Shown here one piece after another: positions 16,725-29,280 of a stretch of DNA of 64,000 nucleotides. The notes under the pieces were generated by a model. It was not told the DNA's origin. It did no database searches and worked only from the letters and a program-made list of their open reading frames with translations. The position numbers were made by a program, and so were the translations under genes. Each line of letters opens with the position of its first letter. Position 1 is the stretch's first letter. This DNA comes from Bacteroidales bacterium (GTDB lineage Bacteria > Bacteroidota > Bacteroidia > Bacteroidales > WCHB1-69), in assembly GCA_017443175.1 (NCBI GenBank), contig JAFSOZ010000011.1:90921-154920 (forward strand). The letters are read 5' to 3'.

Positions 16725-16829
16725 CGTTAACCAACAAACCACAAAAAAAGGCGCAGCCCCACGGCCGCACCCTTAACAGTTCACTGTTCACTGACTACTG
16801 TCCACTGCTTAATCGCGGAGGCAGCGGAC
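16725..16829. repeat. Direct repeat copy 2 (FISUMP 3' end and flank)
   Basis: Near copy of 16225-16328: both carry the words TTAACCAACAA, GCGCAGCC, CCTTAACAGTTCACTG and TTCACTGACTACTGTCCAC and end with TTAATCGCGGAGGC, which in this copy is the stop and last codons of the FISUMP gene. The 500-bp spacing encloses the HTH gene. Confidence 0.75.
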
Positions 16830-19800
16830 GGATAACCCGCTATTCTTGTTGATGTTATCCCCAGTCATGTCGACTGCGTCATAGTCGAGAAACCAGTAGT
16901 CAGCATTGCTATCATCGTAATATGTAGAACTCCAAAAGCGGGCATAAAAGCCACAGGGGTTGTAGTGGGTATCGGAGATATCGCCAGCGGGACGGGCCGA
17001 AAAGCCCGTGGCATTGTTGGCACTTTGGTCATTGCCCACAGCACATGTATTTGTGCTGGTATTCCATCCTGTGGCATCGGCCAATGCCTTTGCTATTGAA
17101 CTGTCGCCGCAAACATACTGGCTCTGGCTGCTCACATAATCTGTAAGCTGTGTCCATTCCGCATCGCTAGGCACATGCCAACCCGTAGGGCAGATGCCCT
17201 GCACGCCGCTGGGATTCGTCGTATCGGAAGAGGACGAATCCCGCATCACGGCTTTCCAGTTGTAAAGGTAACCGTAAGAGTCAACCATGGAAAAGTCATT
17301 GTTCGGATAGTAAAGGTATGGGGTTGGGTCGGACCAAGAGTATTCGGAACCCAAAGCTATACTCGTACCATCTGAATACTTCGTGGTCTTCAAATTCTCC
17401 TTCATCCAACATTGGGTACCTATCTGAACCGTATTGTAAATATTGCCATCGACATCACTCACTGTTGGCATACCTGAACAAGGACGACCATCCTGTGTTA
17501 CTGTATCAACTGTGGTAAAAATGATTTCATTACCATATACTGTATCCACGCTATCCGCAATAAATGCCCGAACATAATACGTTGTTGCCGGCATCAATTG
17601 TGTAAGCAACACTTGGAAAGTATCTGTATTGGTACTATCCACTGCGTAATAGTCTGCCATGGTTGGGTTGGCTGTCGTATTCCAACATACTCCGTGCACA
17701 GTTACAGTATCTACACCTATAATAGAAATATGAGCACTGCAAACTGCGCTTGTGTCTATGATTTGATATACCGAATCCGTGACAACCGAGCCCTCATTAC
17801 GCAAGCAACGTACGGACAAGGCGAAATCCTTGGTGGTCATCGGCATACCAACATTCGCCAGGCTATTAAAAATGGAACGGGTAAAGACATGCAATCCATC
17901 GTTTTCTGTGGAGCTCCAGAAACAGGCTTGTCCGCCGAAAGCATTAGAACCATAAAAGAAATTTCCAGCGGGAAGAGCAGAAAATCCCGTGGCATTGTTG
18001 GTGGCTAACATCTCGCCCACCGAACAGGCAGTATCGCTAGCATTCCATCCAGTGGTTGCTGCCAAGACCCTGGCAATATTAGTGCTATTATCACCACAGG
18101 TGTAAAGATTCTGAGCACTAACATAATCAGTCAGCTGGATCCATTCCGCATTGCTCGGCACATGCCAACCGGTGGGACAGATTCCCTGAACACCGCTCGG
18201 ATTGGTATTGCTTGCAGAAGAATCCCTCATTACCGCACGCCAGTTATAAAGGAAACCGTACGCAGCTACGACAGAAATGTCATTATTCGGATAGTAGCGA
18301 TATGCCGTCGCGGTGGATGGGGAAGAACCTAAAATTATATTCGTACCATCTGCATACTTTGTGGTCCGCAAGTTCTCTTTCATCCAACATTGCTGACCAA
18401 TTCGGACCGTATTATAAATATTGCCATCGGTATCACTCACCGTTGGCATACCGAAACAAGGGCGACCATCCTGACCCACAGAAGCGGCTGCAGTAGTAAA
18501 GCTGACTTCATTGCCGTAAGAGGTATCCACACTGTTAGCGGCAAATGCGCGCACATAATACGTTGTTGCCGGTGTCATATCTGTAAGGATGACCTGGTAT
18601 ATATCAACACCAGTGGTATCCACGATGTAGTTGTCGGCCGTAGTTGGGTTGGGAGTCGTATTCCAGCAAGCTCCGCGTACAGTCACAGAATCTCCGCCAT
18701 TAGCAGCAACGCGACCAATACAAACCGCGCTTGAGTCAGTGGTTTGAAAAGCTGAATCAGTAATAACTGTGGGTGCTGTAATACCGCGCAGGCACCGGAC
18801 TGAAAAACCGTAAGACTTGTCGAAAGAAGAGTTCACCACATTCTCCCTATTGTGATACACACTGACATATTTCGCATTAAAATTATCGTGAGCCGTAGAA
18901 CTCCAGAAATAGGTGGATTCGCCAAAAAAGCCGAACATATCTCCATATCGGCCAGCTGGCAAAGCCGCAAACCCAGAAACATTGTTCATGGAAAGGTCGT
19001 TACCTGGTGCACATGGTGTTCCACTGTTCTCCCAACCGATAGCGGCTGCCAACGCCTTGGCGATGTGTGAATTATCACCGTCACAGATGCTTTCATCAAT
19101 ACCTCCCACATAATTAACAAGTTGCAACCAATCCTCATTACTCGGCACATACCAACCGTTTGGACACACACCTTGCAACCCATTGCCGCTGGATGTAGCT
19201 CCACGCATTACAGCAGGCCAATTGTATAAATAACCATACGCGGCAACATTACTTTCATTGCCCGGAATATAACGATACGGGGAGTCATACCCTCCATTAC
19301 CGCCAACAGGAATCTCTGTATTGTCCGCATAACGCGTGACACGGAGGTTTTCATTCATCCAACATTGGGTACCTATCTGAACCGTATTATAGACATTGCC
19401 ATCAATATCAGACACGGTGGCGGTACCATTACAAGGCAGACCATCACTATTGAAAATCAACGTCAACGTCTCACTGTTATTTATTTCTTGCAAAATTTCT
19501 GCACTTGCATGTCTGTGTATATAGCCCACATAACTCATTTGATCACCAGCATAGGTACAGTTAAGAGAATCGAATTTCATGGATTTCGGTCCAGCAACTC
19601 CGCCTTTTGATATATCTGAAATAACACCGACATATTCCACAGCATCGCGTCCCCCATCATTCTGATTCAACATCTTGACTGATGTGGTCTTTCCATTTTG
19701 CCGAGCTTTGAGAATATAAGTGCCAGGGTTGTGCAATGTGACACGATATTGATGCAAACCCGGCGTTTGGATTTGGTATTTATTTGACGCAACAATACGT

Positions 19801-20135
19801 CCAATCATATCCGCAACCTCAACAGACACCAAACCTTGCTCAGGCAAACTCAGGTTAACCATAGATGTACCACTGAAAGGATTGGGAACCACTTGGGATG
19901 TTAGGCTTGTATTACTGTATGAACCAATACCTGTAGTCAGATCCAGTGTGTAAACCGTATCCGGAAAATAGATAGTGTCCGACCAATTTTGGGTCAGATT
20001 TTTAATGATGATGTAATCGGGCTGGACATAGGCACCGCTATCACTTCGACAAGTAAATGTCAACGTCACACTGCTTTGCGCCATGACGCAAGAGCAAAGC
20101 AGACTCATTACAATAAAAAAGAAAAATTTTTTCAT
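16809..20135 (-). CDS. Secreted protein with three FISUMP domains and FN3-like linkers
   Basis: 1108 residues with a signal peptide (MKKFFFFIVMSLLCSCVMAQ). Residues about 82-157 (VVPNPFSGTSMVNLSLPEQG, then VADMIGRIVAS, PGLHQYRV and YILKARQNGKT) look like a T9SS type A sorting module, but placed near the N-terminus instead of at the end. Three FISUMP (Fibrobacter succinogenes major paralogous) domains follow at about 235-455, 555-780 and 870-1108; each has DGNVYNTVQIGTQCWM-like, YGYLYNWPAVM-like, CPNGWYVPSNEDW-like, GFAALPAG-like and FSVRCLR-like blocks. They are joined by two FN3-like linkers ending in ATTYYVRAFAANS. FISUMP resembles the FGE-sulfatase/C-type-lectin-like fold; its ligand is unknown. 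The protein stops directly after the third repeat. A structured RNA candidate lies upstream. Confidence 0.85.
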   Translation of the reverse strand: MKKFFFFIVMSLLCSCVMAQSSVTLTFTCRSDSGAYVQPDYIIIKNLTQNWSDTIYFPDTVYTLDLTTGIGSYSNTSLTSQVVPNPFSGTSMVNLSLPEQGLVSVEVADMIGRIVASNKYQIQTPGLHQYRVTLHNPGTYILKARQNGKTTSVKMLNQNDGGRDAVEYVGVISDISKGGVAGPKSMKFDSLNCTYAGDQMSYVGYIHRHASAEILQEINNSETLTLIFNSDGLPCNGTATVSDIDGNVYNTVQIGTQCWMNENLRVTRYADNTEIPVGGNGGYDSPYRYIPGNESNVAAYGYLYNWPAVMRGATSSGNGLQGVCPNGWYVPSNEDWLQLVNYVGGIDESICDGDNSHIAKALAAAIGWENSGTPCAPGNDLSMNNVSGFAALPAGRYGDMFGFFGESTYFWSSTAHDNFNAKYVSVYHNRENVVNSSFDKSYGFSVRCLRGITAPTVITDSAFQTTDSSAVCIGRVAANGGDSVTVRGACWNTTPNPTTADNYIVDTTGVDIYQVILTDMTPATTYYVRAFAANSVDTSYGNEVSFTTAAASVGQDGRPCFGMPTVSDTDGNIYNTVRIGQQCWMKENLRTTKYADGTNIILGSSPSTATAYRYYPNNDISVVAAYGFLYNWRAVMRDSSASNTNPSGVQGICPTGWHVPSNAEWIQLTDYVSAQNLYTCGDNSTNIARVLAATTGWNASDTACSVGEMLATNNATGFSALPAGNFFYGSNAFGGQACFWSSTENDGLHVFTRSIFNSLANVGMPMTTKDFALSVRCLRNEGSVVTDSVYQIIDTSAVCSAHISIIGVDTVTVHGVCWNTTANPTMADYYAVDSTNTDTFQVLLTQLMPATTYYVRAFIADSVDTVYGNEIIFTTVDTVTQDGRPCSGMPTVSDVDGNIYNTVQIGTQCWMKENLKTTKYSDGTSIALGSEYSWSDPTPYLYYPNNDFSMVDSYGYLYNWKAVMRDSSSSDTTNPSGVQGICPTGWHVPSDAEWTQLTDYVSSQSQYVCGDSSIAKALADATGWNTSTNTCAVGNDQSANNATGFSARPAGDISDTHYNPCGFYARFWSSTYYDDSNADYWFLDYDAVDMTGDNINKNSGLSVRCLRD

Positions 20136-20224: not shown

Positions 20225-20507
20225 ATACAGAACAAAGCACAAAGAAAGTGGAGCCGTTATCCGACAGCATCCTCCCGGTAGGGCTGGACTCCCTGTTAGT
20301 AAGATACTGAAGAACAAGCCCCACCTAGTCGGCAATTAAACACTTCGTAGGCAAGCTTGATTTCCGATATCCGTACTAACATCTAAACTGTCCAGGTTTA
20401 CCGAGACGGATAAGCGAAAACTCGCTTTCTTTTCAATAAAAAAATCCGTTGCCCGCCTCTAGACGGAACAACGGTGCAAATATACATTTTTTTTTTAATT
20501 TACCAAA
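20225..20507 (-). ncRNA. Structured RNA candidate A (paralogue of candidate B) with promoter
   Basis: On the minus strand TTTG (20507-20504), 19 bases, then TATATTTG (20484-20477) make an excellent Bacteroidetes promoter. It is followed at once by a hairpin CCGTTG..CAACGG (20447-20474) with seven T, then a long rod-like fold. Nested helices in plus coordinates are 20257-20263 with 20407-20413, 20276-20280 with 20399-20403, 20284-20289 with 20390-20395, 20295-20301 with 20374-20380, 20315-20319 with 20355-20359 and 20324-20327 with 20348-20351, leaving a 13 x 14 base central loop. The shape recalls 6S RNA, but identity is unproven. Candidate B at 27499-27734 shares the promoter box, the first hairpin plan and conserved blocks. 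It could be a free RNA or the 5' leader of the FISUMP gene (start 20135). A plus-strand hairpin with T-run at about 20412-20432 leaves direction slightly open. Confidence 0.5.
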
Positions 20508-20514
20508 CCCGGCA

Positions 20515-20580
20515 GACCTACAGCCTGCCACCACCATTCCGCGAAACGCGACAGCGTTGAAGCGGAACCTCCAACGTTAA
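20515..20580. repeat. REP-like hairpins (third repeat site)
   Basis: GGCAG..CTGCC and the two-step hairpin ATTCCGCGAAACGCGACAGC.., nearly identical to 16186-16217, lie directly after the broken BRO-N gene. Same repeat family as the region after meaB. Confidence 0.55.
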
Positions 20581-20582
20581 CC

Positions 20583-20867
20583 CTAAATTCTGACGTATAG
20601 CAATACCACGCAGCCGCTTGTCAATCCAATCTTTCGGATACCCTTTCTCTTCCCTGTTTCGGTCAACATATCTACCTGGGGACAATTTGTCCCTATGTAA
20701 TCAGCCAAAACATCATCCCTTTTACGGATTTTTTTTAGATAGTCGGTAGGATTAACACTGTCCGTTAATGCCGCAACTACATCCACTACAGAAAAATACC
20801 ACTGTTCTTCTTCTTCGTTCCAAATGGAACGAATTTTCTTGTCTTGAAATAATTTAATGTTACTCAT
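20583..20867 (-). pseudogene. Truncated BRO-N / phage antirepressor-like gene remnant
   Basis: The N-terminal ~75 residues (MSNIKLFQDKKIRSIWNEEE, then WYFSVVDVVAALTDS, DYLKKIRKRDDVL and GTNCPQVDMLTETGK) match the BRO-N domain seen in prophage antirepressors and DinD-like proteins of Bacteroidetes, which as I recall run to about 250-290 residues. After TGKRKG the reading becomes unlike the family and stops at 94 residues, consistent with a frameshift or 3' deletion next to the repeats at 20515-20580. The protein is probably non-functional. No other phage gene is nearby. Confidence 0.65.
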
Positions 20868-20925
20868 AGTTGATAAATTTAATAATTTGTAATATGTTTA
20901 CACTTGACGGTTATAAGTCCTTTTG

Positions 20926-22026
20926 TCACCCTTCCGCTACGAGTAGCGCTGAAGCAAATGCAAAAAAGAGATTATAGCCGCCGCAAATGCCATCCAAGTC
21001 CAGCATCTCGCCCGTGACATAGATGCCCGGATATTTCTTCAAGGCGAAACGGTCGTCCACCTCATCCAAGGCAATGCCGCCATGGCACACTTGGGCGAAG
21101 GCCAAATCGTACAGGCCTTCTATTTCCATTTTGAATTTTTTAACATCAAATGGCTCACGCTCATACAACGCATTCAATTTCGGATGCAGCAAACCTCTCA
21201 ATGAATGATACTTGCGGAGATGAGCCTGCACATCGTAATCGGGATTCGCATACAGGAAATTCAGCTCCACAAAACAACCACTCTTATCTTTCAAACGATT
21301 GTAATAAGCCGACAAATTGAGAATCACAATTCCGGAAATACCGTCATCCTTGAACGTCACCTCGCCAGGTTCACTATGGATTAATTTTTCACCCTGATAC
21401 AGGGATGCTATCACCTTCACGCGACAGCCTGACAGTTTTTTCGGATAATCTTTGATGACAAACCCTACTAACGAGGGCTGGAATTCGTTTACCGTTATGT
21501 TAAAATCCTTTAAATAGTCATTGTAATCCTTCCGATTCCTTGGAATCATATTGGCCGGGGTGCCGGAAGCGAACACCACATTGTCAAAGGGCACCGGATA
21601 ATCGTTTATACGCCATAAACCATCCTGCGAAAAGACCTTTCTCACCTCATACCCCATCTCAAAATGGATATTCTCCTCCAAATTCGCGGAAAGGACATCC
21701 ACCACGGTTTGGGAAAATTGCGAAAGCGGATATACGCGACCCTCCTCATCGGCCACCATTTGCAGACCCATCTCTTCAAATTCATGCCACAACCGCTGCG
21801 GGGAGACCTTCTCCAACAGTTTGCTTGCGAATTCAGGATGGTTATAACAAGCTGACAATACACTGGTATTGAAGAGATTGCACTTGCCGCCACCGGATGC
21901 TCGTAACTTGGTGCCCACCTGTCGGCTACGCTCAAACACGTAAACCTCACCCCCCTCTCTTCCCGACCATTTCTTGGCCAGAAACAGTCCCGAAGCTCCG
22001 GCACCGATAATGGCTATCCTTTTCAT
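20926..22026 (-). CDS. BaiN/RdsA-family (HI0933-like) FAD-dependent oxidoreductase
   Basis: 366 residues. Starts with a dinucleotide-binding motif (IAIIGAGASGLFLAKKW), then KLRASGGGKCNLFNTS, the glycine/lysine-rich signature of the HI0933 family; the C-terminal flavin-contact block is YVTGEMLDLDGICGGYNLFFAFASA. Length is slightly below the ~400 usual for the family. The physiological substrate of these flavoproteins is poorly defined. The ATG overlaps the gmk stop by four bases (ATGA), so it is translated from the gmk transcript. Confidence 0.88.
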   Translation of the reverse strand: MKRIAIIGAGASGLFLAKKWSGREGGEVYVFERSRQVGTKLRASGGGKCNLFNTSVLSACYNHPEFASKLLEKVSPQRLWHEFEEMGLQMVADEEGRVYPLSQFSQTVVDVLSANLEENIHFEMGYEVRKVFSQDGLWRINDYPVPFDNVVFASGTPANMIPRNRKDYNDYLKDFNITVNEFQPSLVGFVIKDYPKKLSGCRVKVIASLYQGEKLIHSEPGEVTFKDDGISGIVILNLSAYYNRLKDKSGCFVELNFLYANPDYDVQAHLRKYHSLRGLLHPKLNALYEREPFDVKKFKMEIEGLYDLAFAQVCHGGIALDEVDDRFALKKYPGIYVTGEMLDLDGICGGYNLFFAFASALLVAEG

Positions 22027-22592
22027 TTTTTCTCCAAAAAATCACGTACCAAGCCAATCATCTCCTGCTGGGCGGCCTTCAAATCGTCATTCAGCACTAT
22101 CTTGTCAAACTGGTTGGCGAAAGAGATCTCGTATTCCGCCTTGTCCAACCGTTTTTTCAGCGACTCTTCCGTCTCCGTGCCACGGTTCTTCAACCGATTA
22201 CACAACTCTTCCAATGTAGGCGGTTCAATGAAGACAGCCAAAGCCTTATCGCCATAGAACTTCTTGATATTCAAACCTCCTAACACATCCACATCAAAAA
22301 TCACCGTTCCCCCATTCTTCCAGATACGTTCCACTTCGCATTTCAGCGAGCCATAGAACTGGTCCTTATAAACCTCCTGCCACTCCAGAAACTCGTCGTT
22401 GGCAAGGCGCTCCTTAAACTGTTCCGGGGTGATGAAATAGTAGTCTTTGCCATCCACCTCATAGTCGCGCTTGTTGCGAGTAGTGGCCGAAATGGAGAAT
22501 TTGAGTTCCGGCACGGCGTCCAACAGATGGCGGACGATGGAGGTTTTGCCGGCGCCTGACGGGGCGGATACAATGATGACTTTCCCTTGCAT
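22023..22592 (-). CDS. gmk: Guanylate kinase
   Basis: 189 residues. P-loop [20 protein letters not shown] at residues 3-22, then [20 protein letters not shown] (GMP-binding), FLEWQEVY and [16 protein letters not shown]. Phosphorylates GMP to GDP with ATP in the cytoplasm. The start at 22592 is chosen since a -7 box (minus TATCTTTG, 22613-22620) lies just upstream of it; an earlier in-frame start at 22709 would lie in mutS. Divergent from mutS. Confidence 0.95.
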
Positions 22593-22612
22593 ATTCCGAG
22601 ATTTACAGGGTG

Positions 22613-22640
22613 CAAAGATACCGCTTTTTTTGTACTTTTG
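22613..22640. promoter_or_regulatory. Overlapping divergent promoters of gmk and mutS
   Basis: The -7 box of gmk (minus TATCTTTG, 22613-22620) and of mutS (plus TACTTTTG, 22633-22640) are only 12 bases apart, so each polymerase site would cover the other's -33 region. The two genes may compete for transcription. Confidence 0.6.
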
Positions 22641-22659
22641 CGTTCCCAAAACAAGCACT

Positions 22660-25263
22660 ATGGAAAAGTCGTCAGAAACCCCCTTAATGAGACAATACAA
22701 CAAGTTCAAGGCACAGCATCCTGACGCTATCCTGTTGTTTCGGGTAGGCGATTTTTACGAAACCTACGGGGAGGATGCCATCACCTCATCCAAAGTGCTG
22801 GGCATCACGCTCACAAAGCACGGCAAAGGGCTGACACAGACTGAGTTGGCTGGTTTTCCGCACCATGCACTGGACGTGTATCTGCCCAAGCTCGTGCGCG
22901 CGGGCCTGCGCGTGGCCATCTGCGAGCAACTGGAAGACCCCAAACTCACCAAGACCCTCGTCAAGCGCGGCATCACCGAAATGGTGACACCCGGCGTTTC
23001 CGTCAACGACAAAGTGCTGGAGCAGCGCGAGAACAACTTCCTCGCCGCCATCCAGTTCACGGAGAAAATCTGTGGCATCGCTTTCGTGGACATCTCCACC
23101 GGCGAGTTTTACGTGGCAGAAGGCGACTACGACTACATCGACAAACTCTTCCAGAACTTCAAGCCCTCGGAGCTGGTCATCCAAAAAGGCAAATCGGCCG
23201 CATTCCGCGAGCACTTTGGAGAGAAAATGCTGCTCTCCACCCTGGATGACTGGGTTTTCATGACCGATTTTGCCAACGAACTGCTGACCAAGCATTTCCA
23301 GACCACATCCTTGAAGGGATTCGGCGTGGACAATCTGCCCAACGGCATCATTGCCGCCGGAGCCGCGCTGCATTATCTCTATGAGACTCAAAATCATAGA
23401 ATCCAGCATATCAACAAGATAAACCGCATTGAAGAGGAGCACTATGTGTGGCTCGACCGTTTCACCATCCGCAACTTGGAACTGGTGCACTCGCCCAACG
23501 AGAACGCCGTGACCCTGCTGCAGGTGCTGGACCAGACGCAGACGCCCATGGGCTCGCGTATGCTGCGCAAGTGGATGCTGATGCCCTTGAAAGAAAAGGT
23601 GCTGATTGACGAGCGGCTCTCCATCGTGGAATATCTGCTTCAGAACGAGACGCTTTCCGATGATCTGCTGGGCACACTCAAGCGTATGGGTGACTTGGAG
23701 CGCATGGTTTCCAAGATTGCCACGGGCAAGATCAACCCGCGCGAGGTACTGCAACTGGCACGCGCGCTGCGTTCCATCGAAAAGATGCAAGAATACTGCA
23801 AAAGTGCCGACCACCCGGCTTTGGCTAAGATTGCCGAGCAGTTCAACCCCTGCCTGTCGGTGTGTACCCGCATCGAAAAGGAGATTCAGGACGACCCGCC
23901 CGTGGTGGTCAGCAAGGGCGGCGTGTTCAACCGTGGCGTGGACCAGGAACTGGACGACCTGTTTGCCTTGGCCACCAACAGCAAAGAAGTGCTGGCCGAC
24001 ATTCAGCGGAGGGAAGCCGAAAGAACCGGTATCACCTCACTCAAAATCGGATTCAACAATGTATTCGGCTATTATCTGGAGGTCACCAATGTGCACAAGG
24101 ACAAAGTGCCGGCAGAGTGGACGCGCAAGCAGACCCTCACCAACGGCGAACGGTACATCACGGAAGAACTTAAGGAACTGGAAGCCAAAATTTTGGGTGC
24201 GCAAGACCGCATGTTGGAAATTGAAGCACGCTTATATAATGATTTGTTAATCAGCTTGTTGGATTATATAAACCTCATCCAATTGGATGCGCGTTTGGCG
24301 GCCCGTTTGGATGTGCTGCTCTGTTTTGCCTGCGTGTCGAAAGAGAACCGCTACGCCAAACCGAAAATCACGGAGGGCACGGCGTTGAAAATCAAGGAGG
24401 GCCGCCATCCAGTCATCGAGAAGCAACTGCCGCCGGGCGAGGTCTATATCGCCAACGACGTGCAACTGGACAACGACAAGCAGCAAATCATCATCATCAC
24501 GGGACCCAACATGTCGGGTAAGTCGGCCTTGTTGCGCCAAACCGCCCTTATCGTGCTGATGGGCCAGATGGGCTGTTTTGTGCCGGCCAAGAGCGCGGAA
24601 ATCGGCATTGTAGATAAGGTTTTCACCCGTGTAGGCGCATCGGACAACATTTCCACCGGCGAATCCACATTCATGGTGGAGATGAACGAAACGGCCAGCA
24701 TCCTGAACAACATCTCCAACCGGAGTTTGATTTTGCTGGACGAAATCGGGCGCGGCACCAGCACTTACGACGGCGTGTCCATCGCCTGGTCCATCGCCGA
24801 GTATTTGCACGAAAATCCTTACCACCGTGCCAAGGTGCTCTTTGCCACGCACTACCACGAACTGAACGACATGGCAGCGCAGTTCCACCGCATCAAGAAC
24901 TACCATGTCTCCGTGAAGGAGATTGACAATAAAGTCTTCTTTATGAGAAAGTTGGAGCCGGGCGGCAGCGAGCACAGTTTCGGTATCCACGTGGCCCGCA
25001 TGGCCGGTATGCCCGCGCAGGTGCTCAAGCGCGCCAACGAAATCCTCAAGCAGTTGGAAACCTCGCGCAACAACGCCAGCGGCGAAAAGAGTCTCATTGA
25101 AAAATCGACCCCTGGTTACCAACTCAGTTTCATCAACCTGGACGACCCGCTTTTGTTAGAGGTGAAGGATCTGATTGTCGGACTGAACATCAACAGTCTC
25201 ACGCCCGTAGAGGCGCTCATGAAGCTGAACGAAATACAGCAGTTGCTCACCGGAAAGAAGTAG
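22660..25263 (+). CDS. mutS: DNA mismatch repair protein MutS
   Basis: 867 residues. N-terminal mismatch-binding domain with [16 protein letters not shown] (the F-x-E motif that stacks on the mispair). Connector, lever and clamp regions follow, then the ABC-type ATPase: Walker [18 protein letters not shown] at about 615-631, the FSTGEST-like block [13 protein letters not shown] and Walker [17 protein letters not shown] near 690. [12 protein letters not shown] follows. A full-length MutS1 acting in post-replication repair with MutL, which is not in the window. The start at 22660 follows the -7 box at 22633-22640. Confidence 0.96.
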
Positions 25264-25330
25264 TAGCGTGCCTCCGGCACGCAGGGTGTCTGTAGTGGCA
25301 CGGCGCAGAGCCCCCCACTGACGTGCAGGG
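25264..25330. repeat. REP-like hairpin after mutS
   Basis: GCGTGCC tcc GGCACGC (25266-25282), preceded by a GTA(G) foot, follows the mutS stop directly. No T-run follows, so it resembles the other short intergenic hairpins of this window rather than a terminator. Confidence 0.5.
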
Positions 25331-25431
25331 TTACTGGGATGACGTGTTTGCGACACGAATATCGTCAAGCCAAATATGACTATTAACTCTTAAACAGATG
25401 AACTTATCGAAAATCTCGAGCAGTTCATCCA

Positions 25432-25824
25432 TTAGAAATATTTCTCTAACCAGTCTGCTTGCTCCTGATTTAATCTTTTGGGTCTTTGAATATGACGGCT
25501 TATACCATGTTCTTCCAATTCCTGACGATTGAGGTGCTTGCCTGTATATACTGGGGATATGTTCTGAAACTTGAAACAATCATTATCTGGCTCAAATTTC
25601 ACTTTCCAGTATTTTGCATCATCACGAGTGCTATGGGTGCTCGCAACTTCCATTCTATACATAACACGGTCGTGAATCTTGTCAGAAATGAAAAGATACA
25701 CGATATCACCCACTTCCATGTTTTTTATGCTCCGTTTCCACCAATAACAACATCCAAGATCCTGGATACATTGGATGTGGTCAAACTCTCCGTTCTCTTT
25801 TGCAATAAAAAAGTAACTATTCAT
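25432..25824 (-). CDS. Small PUA/EVE-like domain protein (tentative)
   Basis: 130 residues. MNSYFFIAKENGEFDHIQCI, CYWWKRSIKNMEVGDIVYLF and RVMYRMEVASTHSTRDDAKY have the layout of EVE/PUA-like domains, which bind modified bases and are often found with restriction or RNA-modification systems: an aromatic N-terminal strand, a K-x-GD-x-V/I-Y turn and a substrate-dependent strand. No helicase or nuclease gene is adjacent. The ATG at 25824 is preferred over a TTG two codons earlier. AT-rich neighbourhood with no clear promoter. Function unknown; the fold call is inference. Confidence 0.5.
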   Translation of the reverse strand: MNSYFFIAKENGEFDHIQCIQDLGCCYWWKRSIKNMEVGDIVYLFISDKIHDRVMYRMEVASTHSTRDDAKYWKVKFEPDNDCFKFQNISPVYTGKHLNRQELEEHGISRHIQRPKRLNQEQADWLEKYF

Positions 25825-25877
25825 AAACAAAAAAAAGATATAATATTATTGAATATCCGAAAAGAAAAAAATGTTAT

Positions 25878-27461
25878 TTATAATTTTTCGTATTTTTTCA
25901 CAAAATCCATATCGCCAATAAAAAATTCTATTGTTTTCGATTCTTTTTCATTTCTAACTAAAATTGATTGTTCTGAAGATGTATAAATTCTCAGATACTT
26001 ATCAATGGTGCTTTTATCTTCAACTTTATATGTTTTCAATTCTTTCTCAATCTCTGAAAGCACGTCAGACACTCTATCTTCTGCATTTCCACCAAGGCCA
26101 AGAATACAACATATACCATCAATTTTGCGATTAGGGTCAAACTCATAATCCGTCCATGTAAAATAGTAACCGTGTTGTATCTTACGATATGGTGATCCCA
26201 TCGCATAATATTTTATCATATAGTCCATCGAATACTTCGTTTCCTCATCTAAATCATTCATATCAGAATACTTATTGAAATCCGATTCTTCCAAATGGTA
26301 TCTTTCCATAAGACCATTGAATGTGGCATCAATGGCAATACCTTTATGATTGTTTAAATCAAGAAGGGCAATTACAGTTTTTGGATTGAAATAACATGTT
26401 CTCAAAAAAACACTTTTATTGATATTTATGCTATCGTATTGTGGGTTTACTACATAAATGCCCTTTTCATTGATGAATCCCACTTTTTCATTGAAAACGA
26501 CCGGCGCAATTCCATTTTGAAACATATATGCATTCTCAAACTGGGGTTTAATCTTAATATCTCCTGATGTATTTATATAACCCCATCTGTCATTTTGGCC
26601 AATTGCAATCAGCGAGCCTTTTTCCATATAATCATTGATATAAATATTGTCATATTGAGGATTCACAAGAATCTTTCCTTTTCTATCGCAAAAACCAAAT
26701 TGGTCTCCGATTTCACATACAATGTTGTTTTTATTTATCATATACAGCAAATCATATTGAGGATTAAGGATAATTTTACCCTTTTTATTGATAATACCCC
26801 ATTTATCACCTAAAGAGAACGTTGCAAAACCATCTTTAAAATGCGTGGCATAATCAAACTGATAGGGCACAACCATATTTCCTTTTTTATCAATATATCC
26901 CCATTTATCATTGGTGTCTTTTACAATCGCCAACCCTTCTGAAAATCCCTGCACAGCTTCAAATATTGGATTTATTACTGTTTTCCCTTTTTTATCACAA
27001 AAGCCCCATTTTAAATCCCCTTTAGAATTGATTTTAGCAAAAGCAGCTAATCCATCAGAAAAGGGTGTTACAACTTCGGCATCCGCCATTGAGAATATTT
27101 CTTTTCCTTTATTATCAATAGCTATAGGATGACCTTTGGGTTTAACGACCCATGCTATTCCTTCAGAAAAGCAAGTAACATCTTTGTATTTGCATTCTAT
27201 TGAAATTTCTCCGCTTTTATTAATAAAACCATACCATATAGTACTATCTTTTTTTACTCCTACTCGTGCTAACCCATCAGAAAACAACTCGGCCTCCTGA
27301 AATTGGGCTGTGATAACCATTTTCCCTTTTGTGTCCACATATCCCCATTTTTCACCTACTCTGACAGGAAAAAGGTCTATTGATTCATGAGCTTCTCTAT
27401 TAATAAGATTACACGCATTGAAAATCAAAGCCAAAATCAAGAAATAATATAATCTTCTCAT
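25878..27461 (-). CDS. WG-repeat lipoprotein
   Basis: 527 residues. The signal peptide MRRLYYFLILALIFNACNL has a lipobox (LIFNAC), so the protein should be lipid-anchored. About nine WG repeats fill residues 30-370 (for example WGYVDTKGKMVI, WGFCDKKGKTVI, WGYIDKKGNMVV), each a short beta-hairpin unit of about 35-45 residues. The C-terminal ~150 residues are unlike the repeats and have no recognised domain. WG repeats probably mediate binding, ligand unknown. A structured RNA candidate lies directly upstream on the same strand, about 40 bases from the start. The gene is AT-rich compared with its housekeeping neighbours, which may indicate transfer. Confidence 0.85.
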   Translation of the reverse strand: MRRLYYFLILALIFNACNLINREAHESIDLFPVRVGEKWGYVDTKGKMVITAQFQEAELFSDGLARVGVKKDSTIWYGFINKSGEISIECKYKDVTCFSEGIAWVVKPKGHPIAIDNKGKEIFSMADAEVVTPFSDGLAAFAKINSKGDLKWGFCDKKGKTVINPIFEAVQGFSEGLAIVKDTNDKWGYIDKKGNMVVPYQFDYATHFKDGFATFSLGDKWGIINKKGKIILNPQYDLLYMINKNNIVCEIGDQFGFCDRKGKILVNPQYDNIYINDYMEKGSLIAIGQNDRWGYINTSGDIKIKPQFENAYMFQNGIAPVVFNEKVGFINEKGIYVVNPQYDSININKSVFLRTCYFNPKTVIALLDLNNHKGIAIDATFNGLMERYHLEESDFNKYSDMNDLDEETKYSMDYMIKYYAMGSPYRKIQHGYYFTWTDYEFDPNRKIDGICCILGLGGNAEDRVSDVLSEIEKELKTYKVEDKSTIDKYLRIYTSSEQSILVRNEKESKTIEFFIGDMDFVKKYEKL

Positions 27462-27498
27462 AACAAGTTTTTTTCACTCCCCAGCACCACAAGAGCCA

Positions 27499-27734
27499 AC
27501 AAACAAAAGAAGCGTGGCACTGTACACCACTTTCTTTTGGTAGAGGTTGTGAGAATACCTTTATGGAAGAAATTGCAGACAGCCCACGCTATATGCGCGA
27601 ACCATACACTCTCTTGCCATTGTTAGAAGTTTCTCACATTTCTACCAACAAGACGAGCATAACGCTTCGTTTTATCTAATAAAATCCGTCAACCCTATGG
27701 CAATATTGCCTTTGGATTAACGAGGGCAAATATA
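27499..27734 (-). ncRNA. Structured RNA candidate B (paralogue of candidate A)
   Basis: Minus-strand TATATTTG (27734-27727) starts the unit; no good -33 was seen. A first hairpin (CGTTAATCC..GGGTTGACG, with an inner GGCAATATTGCC palindrome) is followed by GGATTTTATTAG. Plus 27663-27690 matches plus 20423-20450 of candidate A at 21 of 28 bases. The body folds as GGTAG (27539-27543) with CTACC (27642-27646) and GTGAGAA (27549-27555) with TTCTCAC (27631-27637). A terminal hairpin AAAAGAA..TTCTTTT with a U-rich end (about 27535 down to 27499) resembles the end of candidate A (CCACxxTTCTTT.. TTTGTT). It lies upstream of the WG-repeat lipoprotein (start 27461). Free RNA or leader is undecided. Confidence 0.5.
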
Positions 27735-27783: not shown

Positions 27784-28280
27784 TTGCCCGCAGGCCTAAC
27801 GGCCTGCGATGAAAACAACATGTCACACGCCATGGTTCTACCTGTGCCTGCAGACCTGACGGCCTGCAGGGCATAAGCAAAACCAATAGAACAACAACGA
27901 ATATCACAATAATTGCGCAGTCCGTTAGGACTGCCTGCACCGGTAGAACATTACATGCCACACATCGTATCGCACGCCGGCAGGTGTGCGGGCATCTGAC
28001 GGCCTGCAGCGCATAACAAAACCAATAGAACAATCACGGAAAATCACAATAATTGCGCAGTCCGTTAGGACTGCTTGCACCGGTAGGACATTACATGCCA
28101 CACATTAAAATCGCACACCGGCAGGTGTGCGGGCATCTGACGGCCTGCAGCACATAAGCAAAACCAATAGAACAACAACGAATATCACAATAATTGCGCA
28201 GTCCGTTAGGACTGCCTGCACTGGTAGAACATTACATGCCACACATTAAAATCGCACACCGGCAGGTGTGCGGGCATTAT
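27784..28280. repeat. Left hairpin array (three units of about 140 bp)
   Basis: Tandem units of 140-141 bp, marked by GCAGTCCgttaGGACTGC at 27917-27934, 28057-28074 and 28198-28215. Each unit also carries GCAC(A/G)CCggcaGGTGTGC (for example 27972-27989) and a CTGCAG-armed hairpin. The array starts with GCAGGCCtaacGGCCTGC (27790-27807). Loops are GTTA or its complement TAAC while arms differ. The same array, one unit shorter and in the same orientation, lies on the other side of the transposase (28911-29267). 28281-28430 is AT-rich with no recognised signal. Confidence 0.85.
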
Positions 28281-28430: not shown

Positions 28431-28892
28431 ATGAATAACACCTACACCCAAATTCACATTCACACGGTTTTTGCCGTAAAATACAGAGAAGCTCTAATCA
28501 AAGCCGACTGGCGCGATAATCTGTACAAATACATCAACACAATCATCAAAGAACAAGGACACAAACCATTAGCTATCGGCGGAACATCCAACCACATTCA
28601 TATTTTGTTTGGGTTCCGCCCTTCACAATCATTATCTTCGCTGATGCTTCGTATAAAACGTGAAAGTTCTGAATGGATTAACCTTGAGGGATTCACGCCT
28701 TGCCGTTTTCAATGGCAAAACGGATACGGCGCCTTCTCGTACACAAAGAGCCATGTTTCTCGTGTAATCCAATATATCCGGAACCAAGAGGCACATCATG
28801 CAAAAAAATCATTTCGTGAGGAATACCTGAACATGTTGAGGAAAAACGATGTTAAATTTGATGAACGGTATATTTTTGATGATGTATCTTAA
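28431..28892 (+). CDS. tnpA: Y1 (HUH) transposase, IS200/IS605 family
   Basis: 153 residues, full length for TnpA. The HUH metal motif is H55-I-H57 in GGTSNHIHILFGF; the likely catalytic tyrosine is Y115 in VIQYIRNQEAHH; WQNGYGAFSYTKSHV is the conserved block before it. Such enzymes cut and rejoin single-stranded DNA at hairpins, moving IS200 elements or, in the RAYT branch, handling REP palindromes. Here it is flanked by hairpin arrays on both sides, which suggests these are its substrates. Catalytic residues appear intact. No obvious promoter box was found in the AT-rich leader. Confidence 0.9.
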   Translation: MNNTYTQIHIHTVFAVKYREALIKADWRDNLYKYINTIIKEQGHKPLAIGGTSNHIHILFGFRPSQSLSSLMLRIKRESSEWINLEGFTPCRFQWQNGYGAFSYTKSHVSRVIQYIRNQEAHHAKKSFREEYLNMLRKNDVKFDERYIFDDVS

Positions 28893-28910: not shown

Positions 28911-29267
28911 TTGCCCGCAGGCCTAACGGCCTGCGATGAAAACAACATGTCCCACGCCATGGTTCTACCTGTGCCTGCAGACCTGACGGCCTGCAGGGCA
29001 TAAGCAACATTATGAAACAGCTATGGTAATCACAATACTTGTGCAGTCCGTTAGGACTGCCTGCACTGATAGAACAATCAATGGCCACACATCGTATCGC
29101 ACGCCGGCAGGTGTGCGGGCATCTGACGGCCTGCAGCACACAAGCAAAACCAATAGAACAACAACGAATATCACAATAATTGCGCAGTCCGTTAGGACTG
29201 CCTGCACTGGTAGAACAATCAATGGCCACACATTATTTCGCACGCCAGAAGGTGTGCGGGCATTATT
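28911..29267. repeat. Right hairpin array (two units of about 140 bp)
   Basis: Direct copy of the left array minus one unit. It starts with the same GCAGGCCtaacGGCCTGC hairpin; the marker GCAGTCCgttaGGACTGC occurs at 29043-29060 and 29184-29201, 141 bp apart. It ends just before the stop of the dehydrogenase gene at 29281. Small sequence differences from the left array show that the copies have drifted. Confidence 0.85.
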
Positions 29268-29280
29268 ATGTGATGGAAAA

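Follow-up and report, generated by a model that had tools for sequence, protein, structure and literature searches.

Riboswitches of the cyclic di-GMP (c-di-GMP) classes can be numerous within one genome, where they stand in front of dissimilar genes that are often related to the surface, and they have a two-state 3′ end. Bacteroidales-1 RNA (RF01693), which we take to be 6S-like, is single-copy and is not known as a leader, and the phylum Bacteroidota as a whole reportedly lacks Shine-Dalgarno sequences. In Bacteroides, the paralogous FopS small RNAs (sRNAs) number 12–15 copies per genome and are linked to envelope genes; their description gives them a single-stranded 5′ stretch, a terminator hairpin and action in trans, places 9 and 4 of 14 in intergenic and antisense positions, respectively, and states that they were deposited in Rfam (PMC11697453). 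Here we analyze a 64,000-nucleotide (nt) stretch of a Bacteroidales bacterium genome (contig JAFSOZ010000011.1, positions 90,921 to 154,920; hereafter the window), which carries two structured RNAs, copies A and B, on its minus strand. An initial annotation had taken the two for relatives, and model matches and covariation confirm that they are homologous structured RNAs. By the same evidence they are members of one large, unregistered family of ~200–250 nt RNAs with hundreds of matches in Bacteroidota genomes and none in Rfam 15. We read them as structured 5′ leader RNAs of this family that act as a two-state switch, and put the probability of this reading at about 0.6.

One RNA family

Three covariance models were built: R1 from 45 B-type copies (alignment A1, comprising 37 of 63 copies kept after an 86% identity filter plus 8 others), R2 from 44 diverse matches, none of them a window sequence, and R3 from 17 A-type copies, none from the window. 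Across the 64 kb, R2 reports A and B only at an expect value (E) ≤ 0.001 (20236–20436 and 27502–27678). R3, made of A-type copies only, detects B over the same 27502–27678 (E = 1.7e-5) and matches A over 20238–20436 (E = 1.9e-44). Conversely, the B-type model R1 recovers 7 of 10 A-type loci offered to it (E 2.5e-6 to 0.053), and 18 of 33 non-window loci of B type or diverged type were matched by R3. A is absent from the R1 matches in the window at E ≤ 1, which counts against A/B homology; R3 at E ≤ 1 leaves 15 of the 33 non-window loci unmatched, including 7 of 11 B-type loci.

Two checks proposed in the initial annotation have now been made. Covariance models built from relatives of A and B find many further copies in the genus, order and class, and a scan with the Rfam covariance models matches no family: at gathering score, all 4227 families of Rfam 15 give 0 matches in the window and 0 in 17 loci (124917 bases), while laxer scans return just three weak, unrelated matches in the window stretch and none at E ≤ 0.5 in one of 8 loci from other orders. 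We found no description of this RNA family in the open-licence literature searched; flavobacterial 5′ elements without Rfam matches have been reported (PMC9723704). Homologues, covariation and the lack of an Rfam match bear out, as far as sequence can tell, the earlier suggestion of a new multicopy RNA family.

Fold and covariation

In alignment A2 (55 aligned matches; its three antisense rows and two partial ones are included in the count), the share of paired cells is 91.9%, compared with 65.6% after shuffling and 39–47% when the partner column is slid by 1–3 positions; 35 of 37 pairs are double-changed, that is, changed on both sides, with 502 double-change cells versus 139 when shuffled. 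A diverse set of 44 copies gives 92.2% pairing versus 66.3%, 31 of 37 pairs double-changed and 415 double-change cells versus 113 in shuffles, both alignments having been fitted to the model and hence being biased toward its fold. Alignment A7, in which A-type copies were aligned by sequence alone, has 17 of 51 pairs double-changed and 67 double-change cells versus 21, a count that none of 500 shuffles reached; its count of further pair types is not exceptional (68/500 shuffles reach the same). Because helices 6 and 8 of A2 keep conserved G-U pairs, the fold is an RNA fold. The covariation in these three alignments is what a cis-acting leader with a conserved RNA fold should display, agrees with the earlier remark that the arms differ yet still pair, and indicates that the fold is under selection at the RNA level.

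The copies have in common a long rod closed by a helix, P1, and mostly a U-rich 3′ end. Their most conserved unpaired part is a GAAA/ACCUC internal loop, found in nearly all of 49 copies (55 rows minus 6 antisense rows; one copy-selection step excluded loci with antisense matches), and sequence outside this loop is very variable across subtypes. Since the rod is almost palindromic, wrong-strand false copies are possible in scans; antisense B (27499–27675, plus strand) also scores 24.5 bits against R1.

Within the window, A folds better than its own shuffles (z = −3.74), as does B (z = −5.29). The TATATTTG boxes at which the initial annotation had both copies start are present (20484–20477 and 27734–27727, minus strand), and we take them to be Bacteroidota-type −7 promoter boxes. 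Both copies finish, as described there, with CCAC and then a T-rich stretch, and the ends given, 20225 for A and 27499 for B, are close to the model ends 20236 and 27502. A 28-base block said to be shared is exactly 21/28 identical in the best ungapped A/B alignment; it proves little by itself because best blocks with shuffled B have 16–21 identities and 1 of 15 shuffles got to the same 21. The parts of both copies are given below, cargo being the gene that follows each RNA (aa, amino acids).

20477–20484, minus: A promoter box TATATTTG (sequence); homology of most aligned copies begins here
20446–20474, minus: A first hairpin (hp1), feet CCGTTG..CAACGG (fold); arms vary among copies
20236–20436, minus: A conserved RNA body, with hairpin hp2, the rod and the 3′ strand of P1 (R2, E = 1.1e-10)
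20412–20427, minus: A hp2, AAGCGA..TCGCTT (sequence); contained in the A-type consensus fold
20429–20425 with 20248–20244, minus: A helix P1, the hp2 5′ strand GAAAG pairing alternatively with CTTTC (sequence)
20274–20405, minus: A rod (A-type consensus, 17/51 pairs changed on both sides)
20405–20399 with 20280–20274, minus: A helix P3, CTCGGTA/TACCGGG (A-type consensus)
20395–20390 with 20289–20284, minus: A helix P4, CTGGAC/GTCCAG (A-type consensus)
16809–20135, minus: A cargo, a FISUMP (Fib_succ_major) protein of 1108 aa whose start is signal-peptide-like (Pfam PF09603, E = 5.3e-106)
27727–27734, minus: B promoter box TATATTTG (sequence)
27687–27722, minus: B hp1, CGTTAATCC..GGTTGACG, inner GGCA/TGCC (fold)
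27502–27678, minus: B conserved RNA body (R2, E = 9.4e-27; R3, E = 1.7e-5)
27653–27670, minus: B hp2, ACGAAGCGTTATGCTCGT (fold, sequence)
27514–27509, minus: B helix P1 partner CGCTTC, pairing alternatively with GAAGCG of hp2 (sequence, tests over 49 copies)
27537–27648, minus: B rod, in which P3 and P4 are helices 3 and 4 of A2
27648–27642 with 27543–27537, minus: B helix P3, TTGGTAG/CTACCAA (A2 helix)
27638–27631 with 27555–27548, minus: B helix P4, TGTGAGAA/TTCTCACA (A2 helix)
27514–27530, minus: B terminator-like hairpin P2, GTGG..CCAC, with GCTTCTTTTG after it (sequence, pairing test)
27476–27496, minus: B last hairpin (h4), whose loop GGTGCTG (27488–27482) can pair with CAGTGCC (27522–27516)
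25878–27461, minus: B cargo, a 527 aa WG-repeat protein (Pfam PF14903, E = 6.4e-74) with a lipoprotein-like start by eye

In A2, 98.9 and 99.5% of cells are paired in helices 3 and 4, respectively, and all 14 of their pairs are double-changed somewhere. No partner matching the h4-loop pairing of B is found in A. Just upstream of B, ~141-nt repeats around GCAGGCCGTTAGGCCTGC (window about 27784–28277 and 28911–29269) flank an IS200-like Y1 transposase gene (28431–28892), and the repeats also occur at the orthologous site L025.

Alternative pairings at the 3′ end

As a switch, the leader would use AAGCG near its start either in the local hairpin hp2 or, as P1, in pairing with the 3′ end. That end enters the U-tract, which in part of the copies would complete a terminator-type hairpin. 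A factor or signal acting on the rod, whose most conserved part is the GAAA/ACCUC internal loop, would pick the winning pairing. The winner would then govern the entry of transcription or of translation into the cargo gene, the output being either read-through or access to the start codon. Both the two-state step and its signal are inferred.

P1 pairing is stronger within copies (−6.11) than when partners are swapped between copies (−5.48; standard deviation [sd] 0.20; 0/200 permutations; 49 copies). U is enriched at the 3′ end (7.8 T per 13 nt versus 4.1 expected), and B-type and some other copies have a terminator-like hairpin there. The P2 arm CAGUGCC and the h4 loop covary as well (mean 5.31 versus 4.57, sd 0.095; 0/200) across 100 distinct copies of the 108 that, from 139, had the anchor and room. 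This pairing scores ≥5.9 in 61 of the 100, at 25–32 nt in 57 of those 61, and compensatory variants occur (CAGUUCC/GGAACUG, CUGUUCC/GGAACAG). Where the pairing exists, its h4 strand is located past the U-tract, so that there the RNA has to extend toward the cargo at least on occasion, and it is this partner, together with the alternative pairings, that commits us to a two-state leader.

By eye, a subtype represented by L279, L280 and L282 has a U-tract and an A-run before the start codon that pair almost without a mismatch (TTTTTTGTG..CACAAAAAATG in L280); the resulting hairpin might conceal the start codon.

Position before genes and choice of cargo

In most copies the start codon of an accessory gene lies ~20–120 nt downstream on the same strand. 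A same-strand open reading frame (ORF; ≥80 aa) starts ≤330 nt from the approximate RNA end in 105 of the 128 distinct copies with enough room (the 139 copies include 134 distinct ones, of which 6 lacked room), and 77 of these 105 begin at 20–80 nt; in the mirrored upstream control, a divergent ORF is found in 39/118. Copies in other families have a start codon within 118 nt in 17/18 cases, one of the 18 (L273) being also a training copy. In the window, the gap from model match to cargo ATG is ~40 nt for B (WG-repeat protein) and ~100 nt for A (FISUMP protein). The position before a same-strand start codon is therefore constant, as in a leader, with exceptions named below. The RNA would control its downstream genes, probably by switching them on or off.

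Both window copies precede genes for exported proteins, as the initial annotation held, and in the genus the same is true of most copies of the A type (8/8) and the B type (12/14). More broadly, a signal-peptide-like start, called by a simple home-made rule, is present in 71/105 cargo versus 164/653 background ORFs (49/61 in the B pattern set, 10/31 in the diverged set). Among 103 cargo proteins, the best 25 of 60 Pfam families include Por_Secre_tail (8), LRR_5 (5), Lcl_C (5), Fib_succ_major (4) and SprB (3), alongside HSDR_N (3), N6_N4_Mtase (2), ResIII (2) and Mrr_cat_2 (1). PADLOC lists methyltransferases and restriction enzymes among the cargo, and genes for methyltransferases or restriction enzymes also follow three copies (L279, L280, L282) found in other families of the class. 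Because the superfamily also leads such genes, the RNA does not serve surface proteins solely. The earlier proposal of leaders controlling surface proteins thus keeps its leader position, as far as can be read from sequence, and loses its restriction to the surface.

Cargo type follows RNA subtype. In the genus, the three nearest RNAs with non-homologous cargo agree on whether the cargo is exported at a rate of 0.754 versus 0.494 permuted (sd 0.045; 0/2000), in 61 of 65 R2 matches having an ORF, from 62 chosen genus sources. By RNA cluster, exported cargo makes up 8/8 in the A type, 12/14 in the B type, 5/19 in a large mixed cluster, 5/7 in another, and 0/8 in a cluster with two methyltransferases, three of whose loci carry related small ORFs. 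Shared descent of whole sites may account for part of this agreement. RNA subtypes thus seem to serve different kinds of cargo, some of them envelope proteins and others internal proteins, those for DNA modification included.

A helix-turn-helix (HTH) identity for small recurring cargo ORFs (L220, L224, L230), suspected by eye, was rejected, as Pfam gives no HTH match in L220 or L224. At L220 (own genome C2:155000–162500), four small ORFs downstream of RNA copies share a Tat-like start, ELQSRREFFK.., and a C-terminal PMGC; this row looks like a small peptide cluster, among genes we take to be HigA-like and DUF3990-like. A short cargo ORF in L224 (1877–2281, minus) has a start similar to that of the small L220 ORFs and a C-terminal part that matches the TatC end (PF00902, E = 1.3e-18), so that a fusion is possible. 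At L067 (G011:C93), two A-type copies that are 99% identical over 300 nt lie about 1.4 kb apart, with a RhuM-family gene on the opposite strand between them.

Distribution among genomes

The window's own genome (1.37 Mb, 59% complete) has seven copies by R2, including A and B. One (C6:26770) precedes a 298 aa protein with a signal-peptide-like start, a C13 copy precedes a DNA methyltransferase, two C2 copies precede small ORFs that look HTH-like by eye and have no Pfam match, and the seventh copy (C2:269063) is solo. A search of this genome with A gave three further strong A-type stretches (86–90% identity), two of which, at contig ends, are probably halves of one copy. Relatives of A occur in 14 of 36 genomes searched, all 14 within the genus, own included, and relatives of B in many species of the genus.

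R1 has matches in 34/36 genus genomes (own included), 1–14 each at E ≤ 0.01 and very diverged types among them, and under strict filters in 8/157 other genomes of a phylum sample, one match each. R2 at E ≤ 1e-3 matches 17/40 further genomes from the order, where the highest number in a single genome is 26 (one of the 26 being an antisense double), and 10/39 other genomes of the class; genome G071 has four matches with R2 versus one with R1. These R1 and R2 counts of copies and genomes are lower bounds, because just the best 17–75 candidates were scored per genome. The exact 22-base hp2 pattern of B is found in at least 118 stretches of genome contigs. Among the matches listed, 80 loci are labelled nearly all as Bacteroidota metagenome-assembled genomes, mostly from herbivore guts, and one as Firmicutes; hp2 is invariant by construction in these loci because they were selected by that exact pattern. 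A phage or plasmid element was considered and rejected: B has no blastn match in plasmid and phage collections, and its pattern and those of two other subtypes have 0 exact matches in viral contigs, a kind of search that would overlook diverged copies.

Exchange of cargo behind conserved RNAs

At several orthologous sites the upstream flank and the RNA are conserved and the cargo differs (L081/L082, L105/L137/L142, L211/L244). L081 and L082, for example, are 95% identical through h4, then carry unlike genes, and then are 97% identical again. The RNA itself may change: the site of B in genome G022 (L025) keeps promoter and hp1 and has a different RNA body and a different gene, and in L078/L086 a different RNA body starts close to hp2. 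Among truncated leaders, which break off at hp2, L229 precedes a nucleotidyltransferase/HEPN pair and L236 precedes an AlbA_2 gene. L087, at first sight an insertion with target duplication between two hp2 copies, actually consists of a truncated copy and, behind it, a complete one that has a promoter of its own. No repeat common to the loci marks the right border of the exchanged piece, although single loci have a border repeat (38 bp in L106, 38 bp in L140, 34 bp in L241).

Directly 5′ of the start codon and after h4, a pseudoknot-like element, CCTGATGTGCCGACAGG..CGGC or GTTGTGCCCGACACG..GGGT, was seen by eye in several copies, L016, L021, L013 and L019 among them. It lies on the cargo side of the L081/L082 exchange point, present in L081 and absent in L082.

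Competing explanations

Several observations weigh against the two-state leader. Covariation of hp2 is marginal (−6.29 versus −5.77, sd 0.22, lowest permutation −6.29). Many copies have a weak P2 hairpin or none, and one subtype (L088, L089, L091, L104 and others) lacks the U-tract, so termination is not a universal output; the P2–h4 pairing is absent in 29/100 copies, including all eight tested A-type copies and window A with them. Pairing of the U-tract with A-rich sequence before the ATG was rejected as a general translation switch (−7.25 versus permuted −6.80, sd 0.17, with at least 1/100 permutations as low). As to position, 23/128 copies lack a suitable ORF despite 700 nt of room, L068, L074 and L083 have no adjacent cargo, and neither does the solo copy C2:269063 of the own genome. 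In 5/8 copies from other orders the next gene is about 100–490 nt away, four of these five genes being TonB-dependent receptors and one a sigma factor.

Some of these observations would be accommodated by a free-standing family of trans-acting sRNAs with their own promoter and terminator, for which the downstream gene is a mere neighbor, perhaps reached by read-through. Such a family would explain the U-rich 3′ end and the terminator-like hairpin of some copies, the solo copies, and the four copies from other orders (L265–L267, L269) that lie about 225–490 nt before a TonB-dependent receptor gene (Plug domain); divergent HTH genes stand upstream in L255, L256 and L257, and multicopy sRNA families such as FopS are known in Bacteroides (PMC11697453). 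It is hard to square with the short distance that separates most copies from a start codon on the same strand, with a cargo type that depends on RNA subtype, and with pairing to a hairpin downstream of the U-tract, which is conserved outside the A type, and we regard it as unlikely, if worth keeping in view. The leader reading has a special case, a riboswitch class proper in which one small molecule or second messenger serves all copies. The complex fold with its GAAA/ACCUC loop, the many copies per genome before unlike genes and the alternative pairings beside the U-tract are in keeping with it, but outside the loop the subtypes differ greatly in sequence, and no common metabolite is suggested by the cargo; we think this doubtful. 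The resemblance to 6S RNA noted in the initial annotation, a rod with a closing stem and its own promoter, is not supported: there is no Rfam match, and many copies per genome, each before a gene, are unlike 6S. Bacteroidales-1 is found in 0/20 genus genomes, so that the genus offers no separate 6S for comparison, and a diverged 6S RNA seems to us very improbable.

The exchange of single genes suggests another alternative, in which the RNA gene or its DNA hairpins form a fixed border for cassette-like recombination. The sites with conserved flank and RNA and different cargo, the switch of RNA body near hp2 (B versus L025, L078/L086) and the truncated copies that stop at hp2 (L229, L236, L087) are what it would produce. 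However, the integron integrase model TIGR02249 scores over cut-off in 0/20 genomes, and its weaker matches in 19/20 are expected of ordinary tyrosine recombinases, all 14 controls matching too. The exchanged piece has no common repeat at its right border, some pairs with RNA-internal differences involve an internally deleted copy (L096, L156), the conserved G-U pairs of helices 6 and 8 point to RNA, and homologous recombination between repeated leaders would look alike. We consider a recombination platform decidedly unlikely. A broader idea joins the leader reading to the exchange: the RNAs would be phylum-wide "address labels", with subtypes dedicated to envelope or DNA-modification genes that regulate in cis and also act as a docking point for gene exchange, a speculation to which we give little credence.

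Given its hundreds of matches and their absence from Rfam 15, this RNA may control how numerous surface proteins and restriction systems are expressed in bacteria of the gut and rumen, a form of control not described in the open-licence literature searched. The link of subtype to cargo, together with cargo exchange behind a fixed leader, gives a direct route to asking how newly acquired genes come under control in this phylum.

Comparison with known systems

Identities as 6S RNA, FopS sRNA or integron attC are not supported. This family resembles Bacteroidales-1 RNA (RF01693) in length (179 positions in the latter) and in occurring in Bacteroidales; a search with RF01693 across the 20 genus genomes and 14 controls was positive just in Bacteroides ihuae, a control. 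Like integron cassettes with attC, it couples a structured element to one exchangeable accessory gene, but here the element lies ahead of its gene, carries a promoter and shows RNA-type pairs, and no integrase passes the cut-off in 20 genomes. An integron cassette was on that last count rejected; GTTATGC in hp2 looks attC-core-like, yet hp2 loops vary freely between subtypes. With c-di-GMP riboswitches the family shares many copies before unlike, often surface-related genes and, in the proposed reading, a two-state 3′ end, and it differs in having no Rfam match and far larger sequence variation between subtypes. The FopS plan of a 5′ seed and a terminator hairpin as the whole fold is not found in the consensus, which is a long rod; the FopS R1 seed itself was not searched. 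Both FopS and this family are multicopy, paralogous Bacteroidales RNAs tied to envelope genes, and what sets this family apart from FopS as described is that its covarying fold is a long rod and that its copies stand ahead of diverse genes.

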